Shown: piece by piece, positions 22,818 to 28,043 of the stretch
How the letters are laid out: the number at the start of each line of letters is the position of its first letter
Numbering within the stretch: the stretch's first letter is position 1
Assembly: GCA_030690545.1 (NCBI GenBank)
Contig: JAUYGN010000114.1
Coordinates: 1 to 34,772 of the forward strand
Direction of reading: 5' to 3'
Origin: Solirubrobacteraceae bacterium
GTDB taxonomy: Bacteria > Actinomycetota > Thermoleophilia > Solirubrobacterales > Solirubrobacteraceae
Length of the DNA stretch: 34,772 nucleotides
Translations under genes and position numbers: made by a program
The notes under the pieces: model-generated
Seen by the model: the letters and a program-made list of their open reading frames with translations, nothing else
Databases searched by the model: none
What the model was told of the DNA's origin: nothing

Positions 22818-23555
22818 CTACCGCGAGCCTGCCAGCAGCGCGCCGACGCGGTCGAGGTTGGGCAGCAGGAAGCCCGCCGCGATGAACGGCAGCGCCGGGA
22901 CCGCCTCGTCGAGCGCGACGCTGAGCATGAGCGCGCCGACGAGCCCGAGCACCATCCCGACGAGCGTCGGGGCGCGGCGAAAGCCGATTCGCCAGGCCCA
23001 GGCGGCGAACAGCGACAGGAAGACCGCATCGGACAGGCCGAGGTGCCCGGCGCCGCCACCCGTGCCCCAGGCCGGCAGGTCGAAGCTCAGCGGGTCGACG
23101 CGCTCGGTGCCGCCGGAGACCATCCGCGAGGTCGGCCCGGCGGCGACCGACCAGATGTCGATCGCCGCAACGAACAGCGGCACGGCGACGAAGATCGCCG
23201 GCGGCGCGGCCAGCCAGCGCGCGAGCAGCAGGCCGACGGCGCTCGCCAGCAGCGCCTCGGCGACGTTCGCGCCCGCGCCGACGCCGCGCGCGCCGTCGGC
23301 GTTCAGCGCGGCGACGAGCAGCCCCGCGCCGAGGACGATCAGCAGCGGGCCGATCAGCGTCTCGCGGGCCGGCAGCAGCGCGAGCGTGCTGGCGGCGACC
23401 ACCAGCAGCCCGACCGAGCCGGCGACGAGGATCGTCGCGTCGCCGGCCGGCAGCGCCGGCAGCGCCGGCGCGGCGAGGAAGTAGGCGAGCGCCGCGAGCG
23501 GGATCGCGAACACGATCGCGGGCGCGCCGGGTCGGCGGCGGATGGGCGTGCTCAC
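22818..23555 (-). CDS. Presenilin-like GxGD-type membrane protein
   Basis: A 245-residue, multi-pass protein (about eight or nine hydrophobic segments). Three features match intramembrane aspartyl proteases of the presenilin / signal-peptide-peptidase class: an Asp in a membrane helix (D133, AAIDIWSV, compare YD), LGLSD (172-176, compare LGxGD), and a C-terminal PALP (220-223, AVPALPFIAAG). The order and spacing of all three are right. The Gly before the second Asp is Ser, and the first Asp follows Ile, not Tyr. It may be an active protease with a variant motif or an inactive relative. The GTG start at 23555 gives a membrane-ready N-terminus. Confidence 0.7.
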   Translation of the reverse strand: MSTPIRRRPGAPAIVFAIPLAALAYFLAAPALPALPAGDATILVAGSVGLLVVAASTLALLPARETLIGPLLIVLGAGLLVAALNADGARGVGAGANVAEALLASAVGLLLARWLAAPPAIFVAVPLFVAAIDIWSVAAGPTSRMVSGGTERVDPLSFDLPAWGTGGGAGHLGLSDAVFLSLFAAWAWRIGFRRAPTLVGMVLGLVGALMLSVALDEAVPALPFIAAGFLLPNLDRVGALLAGSR

Positions 23556-23699
23556 GGCGCCGAGCGACTCATGCCGGCGAACGGGATCTGCGGGCGCAGA
23601 GGCTCGACCCTGCGGTCGGGTGGACCTGCTCGGGCGCGCCGCGAATCTCAACCCATCTCCGGGCGCGAGTGCTCGACCCTGCCCGGTCGGCGCTGCATT
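23556..23699. other. Intergenic region with a 12-base direct repeat
   Basis: GCTCGACCCTGC occurs at about 23603-23614 and 23670-23681, each followed by a CGGTCGG- or GGTCGGG-type sequence. No gene is seen. It may be a regulatory site or a decayed repeat. Confidence 0.35.
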
Positions 23700-24352: not shown

Positions 24353-26275
24353 TCACGACTTGCGCGTCGCCCGTCGCACCCGCCGGTCGCGCACCGCGCG
24401 GCGCGCGCTCACGGGGGTCGCCTTCGTCTCGAGGAACTTCAGCGCCTGCACGTACAGCAGCGACGACGGCTTCGTCGTGATCTCGGCCGTGCGCAGCGAT
24501 TCGAGGAACTCCTCGGCGCCCTCGAAGTCGTGCATCCGCACTCGCACGGAGCCGAGCCCCTGGGCGACGTGCGAGTCCGATCCCGCGCCGGCGAGGATCC
24601 GGTACTTGGCGGCGAAGCGCTGCGCCTCCTCGTTGAACGAGCCGATCGCGACGCGCGGGTTGTAGACCTCGATCGCGTCGATCTGCTCGATGATCGTCAG
24701 CAGATGCTCGTAGTCGGGGACCGCGTGCATGCGGTCGAACGGATGCGGCACGTAGACGAGCCCGCCCTGGCGCTTGATCTCGGTGACCGTCTCGGCGAGC
24801 GACAGGCCGCGCGGGATCTTCTGCTCGATGAAGAGGCCGATGACCTCGCCCTGGTCGGCGGTCTTTACCTCCTCGGCGACGATCACCTTGACCCCGAACC
24901 GCGCCGCCTTCTCGCGCGCCTCCAGGGCGCCGGAGACCTCGTTGTGATCGGTCACCGCGATCGCCCCGAGGCCCTGCTCGCGAGCGGTCGCCAGCAGCAC
25001 CTCGACCGGCGTCGCGCAGTCGTGCGAGTGATCGGTGTGCATGTGCAGGTCGACGTCGATCCGTGGGCGCGAGCGCAATCGCGCGGCGATCGTCGCGTTG
25101 CCGGTCAGCGGGTGGCGGCGCGCGACGACGCGCGCGTAGACCTCCTCGAGGTCATCGGCGACGCGCGGCCAGGTCAGCGTCGCGCGGACCGGCCCGGCGG
25201 CGGCCTGGAGGCGCTCGCGCAGCGTGGCGTCGGTGACGAGCCGCTCGAGCTGGCCGGCGAGCGTCTCGATGTCGCGCGGCTCGAACAGCAGGCCGAGCTC
25301 GCCCTCGCCGAGCGCCTCCTCGTAGACGGCCAGGCGTGACGCGAGCGGCACGGCACCGGCGCCGAGCGCGCGCAGCAGCAGCGTGGGCGCCGGCGACGCG
25401 CCGTCGGAGGCGGCGACGAAGACGTCGCTGGATGCCAGCAGCTCGGCTTCGGAGAGCTCGTCGGGCGTCGCGAAGCGCACGCGCTCGGCGAGGTCGTCGC
25501 GCAGCGGCGTGCTGCTCGACGGTCCGCGCATCGAGACGACCGTCGCCTCCCACGGCAGCTGCGGGTCGAGGCGGCGCAGCGCGCGCAGGAACAGGCGCAG
25601 CGCGGGGCGCTCCTCGTCGTCGACGAAGCCGAAGCGCACGCGGTCGCCGGCGGACGCCGCTCGCGGCAGCGGGGCGTCGGCGCCGGGCGCCAGCACGCGG
25701 TAGTCGGCCGCAAAGAAGCGCTGCATGAGGTCGCGCGTGGCGTGAAAGCTCGCCGTGCGGGCATCGAGCCGGCCGAGCACGAGCGAGACGACCCTGCGGG
25801 CGACCTGGGTCGACAGCAGGCGCTCGGTCGGCGCATGGAAGGTGCCGACGTTCAGCGCGCGCGAGTGGCGCAGCGCGGCGCTCGACGTCGACGGGGCGAA
25901 CGGCTCGTGGACATGGCAGATGTCGAGCGGCAGGATCGCCAGCAGGTTCTCGATCGTGCGCGAGACGTCGACCGGCAGCGCGGGCGCACGCCGCGCGCTG
26001 CCGGGCAGGTCGGGCAGCGCGTCGCCGACCGCGAGCACGCGCGGCGGGGCGCCGGGCTCGGGCAGCAGCGTGGCCGGGTCGTCGCGCGCGGCGCTCAGCG
26101 CGGCGCGGGTCTCGCGCACCGCCTCGCTGGAGCGCGAGGGAGCGATGATCAGCAGCTGGTGCCCGCGAGCCGCGAGCTCGGCGGTCGTGCGCTGCACGTA
26201 GGTCGTGATCTCGTGGCGGCCGGCACCCCACGGATAGGGCGTCACGTGGGCGATCGCGAGACGGTCGTCGAGCAC
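24353..26275 (-). CDS. Glycosyltransferase family 4-like / PHP phosphoesterase fusion
   Basis: A 640-residue two-domain protein. Residues 1-385 resemble GT-B family 4 glycosyltransferases (AIAHVTPYPWGAGRHEITTY, ICHVHEPFAP, GTFHAPTER, and a C-terminal LLFEPRDIETLAGQLERLV). The nucleotide-sugar EX7E region is weak (PAPTLLLRALGAGAVPLASR). Residues 405-620 are a PHP domain with all metal ligands: DLHMHTDHSHD, AVTDHNEVSGA, AEEVKT, VPHPFDR and GSDSHV. Substrates are unknown; a phosphoesterase acting on a glycosylated lipid or sugar phosphate is possible. The GTG start is seven bases after TATCCT. It probably forms an operon with the UDG-like gene downstream. Confidence 0.85.
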   Translation of the reverse strand: MLDDRLAIAHVTPYPWGAGRHEITTYVQRTTAELAARGHQLLIIAPSRSSEAVRETRAALSAARDDPATLLPEPGAPPRVLAVGDALPDLPGSARRAPALPVDVSRTIENLLAILPLDICHVHEPFAPSTSSAALRHSRALNVGTFHAPTERLLSTQVARRVVSLVLGRLDARTASFHATRDLMQRFFAADYRVLAPGADAPLPRAASAGDRVRFGFVDDEERPALRLFLRALRRLDPQLPWEATVVSMRGPSSSTPLRDDLAERVRFATPDELSEAELLASSDVFVAASDGASPAPTLLLRALGAGAVPLASRLAVYEEALGEGELGLLFEPRDIETLAGQLERLVTDATLRERLQAAAGPVRATLTWPRVADDLEEVYARVVARRHPLTGNATIAARLRSRPRIDVDLHMHTDHSHDCATPVEVLLATAREQGLGAIAVTDHNEVSGALEAREKAARFGVKVIVAEEVKTADQGEVIGLFIEQKIPRGLSLAETVTEIKRQGGLVYVPHPFDRMHAVPDYEHLLTIIEQIDAIEVYNPRVAIGSFNEEAQRFAAKYRILAGAGSDSHVAQGLGSVRVRMHDFEGAEEFLESLRTAEITTKPSSLLYVQALKFLETKATPVSARRAVRDRRVRRATRKS

Positions 26276-26480: not shown

Positions 26481-28043
26481 TCAGCGCACGACGACCTGGT
26501 GCCTGATGCTGGCGCGCGTCCGCGGGCCTGCCGGCAGCGTCGTCGTCACCGTGTAGCGCAGCCCGGCGCGCGCGCGGCCACGGGGCAGCCCGACGACGGT
26601 CGTCGTGCGACCGGCGCGCGCCGGTCGCTGTCCGCTCGCAACGACCCGGCCGGCGCGCCGCAGCGTCATCCGGACCGGGCCGGATGCGGATGCCGAGGCG
26701 CCGGTGAGCGTGCACTGGATCCGGTTGCGCCGCGCCCCGGTCAAGCGGCAGCTGACGCGGATGCTCGCCGCCGGGCCGCGCGGGCCGGTCTGGCCGCGGG
26801 GACCGGTCGCGCCGGCTGGGCCGACCGGGCCTGCGGCGCCGGTGGGGCCCGCGGGGCCACCGGGACCGCTGGGTCCCGGGAGGCCGATGCCGGGTGGTCC
26901 CTCGGGGCCGGCGGGACCCTCGGGGCCGGGGGGTCCCTCCGGGCCGGGCGGGCCTGCGCGCAGGCCCAGCGGCTTGTTCAGCTCGATCTTCGTGACGCCG
27001 GTGACGTGGCGGGCGCCGGCGCTGTCGCCCGGTACGACGAGGCGCGGCAGCCCGCCCGGCGTCGGCTCGAACGCCGACGGTGGATCGGTGACCTCCCTGA
27101 ACTGCGAGGCCAGCAGCACGTCGTTGTTCGCGAAGCTCGGGTCGAACTCGCCGTAGCCGACGAGCGTGCTGTAGCCGTCCTCACCGGCGGAGGCGGCGAC
27201 GTAGTGGCGCAGCCGGTCGTTGCTGACGGCGGCGTCGAAGCGCGGCTGCGCCTTGGCGAGCACGTCGCGCAGCAGCACGCCCTTCCACTCGCGCGTCGTG
27301 CCGCCGAACGTCGAGGTGATCTGCTGCTGGTCGGGGAACTGCGCGGCGTCCTCGAGCGTCTCCCTGGTCAGCACGAACGGGTTGGCGACGTTGCCCGTGA
27401 CGAGGACGTTGCCGTTGATCGGGGGGATGCCGGGCGACCCGAGGTAGGGCGGCAGGCCCGGGGCGCGATCGAACTCGACCTTCGAGACGCCGGTGACGTG
27501 GCGCCCGCCGCGGTCGTCGCCGGGGACGACGAGCCGCGGCAGGCCGCCCTCGGTCGGCTGGAACGGTGCTTCGGGGCCGTCGGCGGTGAGCCTGAACTGC
27601 GTCGCCAGCAGCACGTCCTTGTTCTGGAAGGTCGGCGCGATCTCGCCGTAGCCGACGAGCGTGTTGTAGCCGTCCGAGCCGGCGGTGACGGAGATGTAGT
27701 GGCGCAGGATGTCGCGGTTGTTGCTGATGCTCTCGTCGAGTCGCGGGACCGCTCGATCGATCACGTCTCGCAGCAGCACGCCCCTCCACTCGCGCTCGAC
27801 GGGCGGGTTCGCCCCGCTGCCGAACGACGAGGTGACCAGCTTGGATTCGAACGTGTCGGTGTTCTCGAGATCCTCGACGGTCAGCAGGAGCTCCTGGCTG
27901 ACGTTGCCGGTGATCAGGACGTGGCCGTCCGGGACCTGCGGACCACCTTGGGCGGAGGCGCCGGTGACGGCCAGTGCGAGCGTTGCGATCATCGTCGCGA
28001 TCGCGACGATGATCGGCCGCGCGGGCCGGAGGTTGCTGCGCAT
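26481..28043 (-). CDS. Exported tandem SUOX-fold protein with collagen-like stalk
   Basis: A 520-residue secreted protein. The signal peptide (about 1-31) ends VTGASAQG. Two homologous repeats (about 38-192 and 208-355) share [11 protein letters not shown] / [18 protein letters not shown] and [11 protein letters not shown] with [11 protein letters not shown] / [11 protein letters not shown], the pattern of the sulfite-oxidase molybdopterin-binding fold. Neither repeat has the molybdenum-ligating Cys. Twenty Gly-X-Y triplets follow (364-425), interrupted once by GI at 385-386. The C-terminal 95 residues form a beta-rich, Arg-rich domain with two Cys. AGGAG lies four bases before the ATG. Role is unknown; collagen-type trimerisation at the cell surface is likely. 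Confidence 0.85.

Follow-up and report, generated by a model that had tools for sequence, protein, structure and literature searches.

Proteases of the presenilin type have been described in eukaryotes and archaea, and presenilin is the enzyme linked to Alzheimer's disease. Presenilins (PF01080, MEROPS A22A; PS1 and PS2 of gamma-secretase) are proteins of nine helices and 467 residues that carry the first catalytic Asp in a YD motif and the second in GxGD, followed by PALP. In PS1, the substrate joins the strands Y288-S290 and R377-L381 in a sheet, and cleavage is essentially abolished when these strands are removed (PMC10290658). The SPP/SPPL proteins (MEROPS A22B) have the same fold, and SPP and presenilin are given opposite topologies in a statement of PMC7366577 that cites Friedmann 2004. 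Archaeal PSH / MCMJR1 is prokaryotic and compact, with GxGD and a PPL without an obvious PAL (PMC2947513). No bacterial presenilin family is described in the literature that we searched, the coverage of which was limited; that the presenilin-like family of Thermoleophilia reported here was undescribed before is therefore probable rather than proven.

The window, i.e., the whole stretch of DNA that was analysed, comprises 34,772 nucleotides from a Solirubrobacteraceae bacterium. The presenilin-like gene P0002 (22818..23555, minus strand) encodes 245 aa, with a GTG start at 23555 and the stop at 22820-22818. A sequence-only reading had pointed to a membrane Asp, an LGLSD motif and a PALP in this interval, leaving the strand unstated, and in the minus-strand frame all three lie exactly at the residues it gave. 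The putative first catalytic Asp, D133 (23157..23159), is located in helix 119-139 (FVAAIDIWSVAAGPT) and is followed by SVAAGPT (136-142; 23130..23150), which represents a conserved SV..GPT and is aligned with presenilin DLVAVLCPKGPLRMLVE. The putative second catalytic Asp, D176, ends LGLSD (172-176; 23028..23042), for which the family consensus is LGx[P/S]D, and PALP (220-223; 22887..22898) lies where the last helix begins; all of these features are on the minus strand. The plus-strand frame over 22818-23555 is an Arg/Gln-rich shadow without support and was rejected.

Searched alone, P0002 matched nothing in Pfam or the PDB, and its only NCBIfam match is without meaning. When a profile of 25 members was searched against all PDB sequences, the best eight matches were presenilin-2 and presenilin-1 (E 6.1e-6 to 8.9e-3), and the ninth was unrelated (E 0.23). 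The alignment puts the first Asp on the Asp of presenilin YD, with GP common after it (VDalSVa.GPtkklvE vs YDLVAVLCPKGPLRMLVE), and continues in register with the second Asp on GLGD and PALP on PALP. Of 5000 shuffles per presenilin segment that preserved the hydropathy pattern, none scored as high as the unshuffled sequence (13.0 and 29.0 bits for the two segments; best shuffles 11.1 and 15.7). The Pfam family Presenilin (PF01080) matched 10 of the 25 members individually (best E 1.4e-4), and A24 prepilin peptidase had no Pfam match in sets of 25 and 58 members. Against the curated PF01080 cut-off of 34.3 bits, none of 149 genomes scored above it, the best match having E 2.3e-4 and 21.1 bits. 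The link is drawn from PF01080 and the PDB, as a search with PF06550 (archaeal/SPP) gave no match in 21 relatives. A Gaiellaceae-rich profile, built from the alignment A5 (P0002 and 57 others), retrieved presenilin-1 at E 1e-3 only, behind a designed coiled coil. Weak matches of single members to DUF4267, YwiC, SDF and NrsF were set aside as probable noise from membrane composition. Given this noise and the weaker Gaiellaceae-rich profile, the sequence evidence for presenilin homology appears good, if not overwhelming when taken without structure.

An AlphaFold2 model of P0002 with 57 relatives (pLDDT 84, pTM 0.82) contains eight long predicted helices (11-31, 37-60, 68-86, 93-114, 119-139, 174-190, 194-215 and 221-241). 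Two beta strands are predicted in the catalytic loop region: one at 157-160 (23076..23087, minus strand), a likely counterpart of PS1 beta1, and one at 169-173 (23037..23051, minus strand), directly before the second Asp, which would correspond to PS1 beta2, R377-L381. In a VIA-align search with this model, presenilin, SPPL2a and archaeal PSH account for all of the 24 best chains (Z 16.7-11.4, aligned over 156-202 residues), with SPPL2a (9k92/9k93) at Z 14.2-14.6 and PSH (4hyg, 4y6k) at Z 14.0; the first unrelated chain had Z 6.0. Foldseek ranked the same families first with weak E-values (best 0.012), and a model of the divergent member L171 matched presenilin and SPPL2a at Z 16.6-10.6. No A24 structure was among the fold matches listed, which we do not take as exclusion. 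By sequence profile, helices 1-5 align with presenilin TM2-TM6, a weak segment; the structure alignment instead opens at helix 2 against presenilin TM1. The fold match places D133 and D176 on the helices that bear the catalytic Asp of presenilin, and a facing of the two at catalytic distance would be implied through the fold alignment only. The presenilin likeness proposed from the letters is borne out both by profile search, in which human presenilins ranked first in the PDB, and by the predicted fold.

These results also bear on the view that P0002 is an ordinary polytopic membrane protein, such as a transporter, a channel or a prepilin-peptidase-like enzyme, with a few short motifs that resemble presenilin. 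The lack of a Pfam match for P0002 would fit it, as would the weak single-member matches to unrelated families, which indicate that membrane composition alone yields some. However, presenilin is matched in register at the catalytic motifs beyond all shuffles, in two models the structure match scores much higher than unrelated helical bundles, and Pfam gave no match to A24 prepilin peptidases; we consider this view very improbable. The product of the gene is probably an intramembrane diaspartyl protease with the presenilin/SPP fold, belonging to a bacterial sister family with Gx[P/S]D.

Conservation concentrates on the same residues. In an alignment of 25 diverse members (A2), G108, D133, S136, G140, P141, D176, F179, R193, A221, L222 and P223 are invariant; in A5, these are D133, S136, V137, G140, P141, G173, D176, F179, F183, R189 and R193 as well as T197, A221, P223, F229 and N233. 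A census of 136 non-redundant members found D133 in 128, D176 in 122, both Asp in 121 and PALP in 103, and the pattern of D133, D176 and PALP is more than chance. The residue before the first Asp is Ile or Val in most members and Ala in some (ID in P0002), and the Gly at -3 from the second Asp is kept in 120 of 136. Directly before the second Asp, the 122 members that have it carry Pro (67), Ser (36), Thr (6), Ala (6), Val (4), Leu (2) or Gly (1). The sequence-only reading had taken the Ser in place of the second Gly of GxGD as unusual. The departure from GxGD is real, but since 103 of the 122 members have Pro or Ser, the Ser before D176 is the normal state of the family and not a peculiarity of P0002.

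Whether such a motif permits catalysis is the main point on which an alternative has to be weighed. Larger residues at the Gly before the second Asp virtually abolish the activity of PS1 (PMC10290658), and in archaeal PSH the exchange G219A lowers it considerably (PMC2947513), both of which count against the protease reading of a family with Pro or Ser at this place. They would favour a presenilin-fold pseudoprotease, a scaffold binding TM helices (as a chaperone, in retention or in signalling) without cutting, in which the active site is obstructed by the residue that precedes the second Asp. Among the rhomboids, iRhoms are such non-cutting members. Two further findings weigh against proteolysis. 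The dN/dS of P0002 vs its congeners is 0.58-0.60 (NG86), indicating modest constraint only, and some lineages retain the gene after loss of one or both Asp. These Asp-lacking members are confined to one family and, within it, to a few genera; one group has kept the first Asp and has Thr at the second, another has lost both, and PALP is also lost or altered (PFTA, PATA, PVAP, PALT and similar). The two Asp are lost jointly much more often than chance would give (Fisher odds ratio 141, p 1e-7), although the members are related, so that few independent losses are involved. Against the pseudoprotease, both Asp are conserved not only in 121 of 136 members, drawn from many families, but also in a second lineage of the phylum, and the joint disappearance of Asp and PALP is what one would predict for residues that take part in a single reaction. 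As the Asp pair is almost invariant and goes missing jointly with PALP, an active family with an altered motif is likelier than the inactive family that the sequence-only reading had also considered, and we regard the pseudoprotease as unlikely for the family as a whole. The proteins of two sub-lineages are possible pseudoenzymes: genus g19 (L094, L095, L193 and other loci) and genus g20 (the L021-L028 group), where the gene was kept after losing both or the second Asp, and PALP.

The start of P0002 at 23555 is less certain than its body. In close relatives, the start is a GTG that overlaps the end of the upstream gene; in the window, about 140 extra bases (23560..23698, minus strand) stand between the stop of the upstream UDG-like gene and the gene body. 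They have no counterpart in close relatives or congeners, and through them the GTG that normally overlaps the upstream gene is displaced. The insertion contains an imperfect direct repeat, GCAGGGTCGAGC..CT.GCGCCC, present twice, and no copy of it was found elsewhere in the same genome, so it is not a dispersed repeat. One might therefore ask if the family is active while the copy in the window is decaying, the insertion having removed its usual start and its coupling to the upstream gene. The displaced GTG speaks for this, and so does the identity of P0002 to congeners, which is about 70-74 percent, compared with 83-87 percent for the neighbouring gene. Yet the body is open over its full length with all motifs intact, an in-frame GTG is available, and the relatives show similar rates among themselves; decay appears improbable.

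The genomic setting is conserved. Upstream of P0002, a gene for a UDG-superfamily protein (PF03167; 23700..24356, minus strand) forms a conserved operon partner, and the next gene of the same conserved run encodes a glycosyltransferase family 4 plus PHP domain protein (24353..26275, minus strand). A UDG-like gene directly precedes 106 of 113 presenilin-like ORFs on the same strand, often with overlapping stop and start; of the other seven, three lie where no upstream sequence is available, and in four the distance to the UDG-like gene is 560-802 bases. The glycosyltransferase-4/PHP gene is found further upstream in 93 of 103 loci. The UDG-like gene occurs in 142 of the 146 genomes of the window's family and the presenilin-like gene in about 30-35, roughly a quarter, so the partner does not depend on the presenilin-like gene, and a functional link between the two is no more than a possibility. 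The UDG neighbour has LLKHAPMPAE and VPNIDEAL at the positions of the expected family-4 active-site motifs, GEAPG and the HPS-type motif, respectively, and these replacements recur in syntenic relatives; it appears to be a divergent UDG-like protein without the usual motifs of that family. Also on the minus strand, the product of 26481-28043 combines molybdopterin-oxidoreductase-type domains with a collagen-like stretch rich in Gly and Pro. In other genomes, the presenilin-like protein appears to be fused in frame with a calcineurin-like phosphoesterase (L111:5001-6431 and L112:2841-4289) or with a methyltransferase-looking domain without a Pfam match (L080:3994-5529 and L081:3973-5511).

With P0002 alone as query, a first contig scan found no relatives. 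Subsequent counts depend on the query: P0002 itself detected homologues in 30 of the 146 genomes of its taxonomic family, and a profile detected them in 35 of 232 genomes at the level of the order and in 166 of 399 sampled genomes at the level of the class Thermoleophilia, nearly always as a single copy. One scan query was a Gaiellaceae-type subset of the members, and the carriers with named records are Gaiellaceae and Thermoleophilia metagenome-assembled genomes. Outside the class, among 346 genomes of the phylum scanned, the gene was found in only one other actinobacterial family (f23, 11 genomes). The sequences of that family have kept both Asp, together with PALP or close variants of it, and in 4 of 9 of its loci a UDG-like frame lies immediately upstream (tblastn).

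The charge of the loops points to the orientation in the membrane. Positive charge prevails at the N terminus, in 61-67 (family mean), in 191-193 (family mean K+R 2.7 vs D+E 0.25) and at the C terminus, and the loops 32-36, 87-92, 140-173 and 216-220 are net negative; the short turn 115-118 is the single loop at odds with the pattern. R193 (22977..22979, minus strand), conserved in 132 of 136 members, would mark the cytoplasmic end of the helix of the second Asp by the positive-inside rule. This distribution suggests that both termini are inside and that the catalytic loop and PALP are outside, which would be the orientation of SPP and the opposite of presenilin. In five members (L159, L168, L169, L170 and L171), about 110 extra residues separate the Asp helices, in the place of the large loop of presenilin. 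These inserts hold a domain resembling fibronectin type III, as seen in the model of L171 (residues 158-236, a region of low confidence; Z about 5, rmsd 2.3-2.8 A). Such domains in the catalytic loop fit an outside location. From an N-in/C-in orientation it would follow that N-in/C-out segments are the likeliest substrates, for instance remnant signal peptides or type II anchors.

Compared with presenilin, then, the family shares the order and register of both Asp and PALP, the GP after the first Asp (VDxxSVxxGPT vs YDLVAVLCPKGPLRML in presenilin) and the beta strand just before the second, and presenilins are its best sequence and top fold matches. It differs by Gx[P/S]D in place of GxGD, by the missing Tyr before the first Asp, by eight predicted helices and about 245 aa rather than nine helices and 467 aa, and by a catalytic loop that is probably extracytoplasmic. 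With SPP/SPPL it has in common the fold and the predicted orientation, including a cytoplasmic C terminus; its profile finds presenilins and not SPPs, and the motif and helix number differ. Relative to archaeal PSH, which shares the compact prokaryotic format and the fold, the situation at the motifs is reversed, as the family has PALP without GxGD. Of the features that define A22, a first Asp in a predicted TM helix, a PAL motif before the last helix and the presenilin fold are thus present, and YD, GxGD, nine helices and a PF01080 score above the curated cut-off are absent. The description as presenilin-like holds for the fold, the Asp pair and PALP; as strict presenilins these proteins fail by GxGD and nine helices. 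For these reasons, they are best called a sister family to the GxGD proteases in the presenilin clan.

By analogy, the family probably works like presenilin and SPP. Positioned on neighbouring helices, D133 and D176 would activate a water molecule inside the membrane for the hydrolysis of a transmembrane segment of the substrate, and the strand before D176 and the PALP turn might hold the unwound substrate, as in gamma-secretase. On balance, we lean towards an undescribed bacterial branch of the presenilin clan that is active with Gx[P/S]D, has eight helices and an inverted orientation, and can dispense with the Gly beside the second Asp. If this is true, that Gly, which was thought indispensable, is not required by the chemistry. 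A compact bacterial relative would test the roles of this Gly, of the ninth helix and of the gamma-secretase partners, and could offer structural and inhibitor studies a simpler model. Having kept PALP and changed GxGD, it would also bear on the origins of presenilin.
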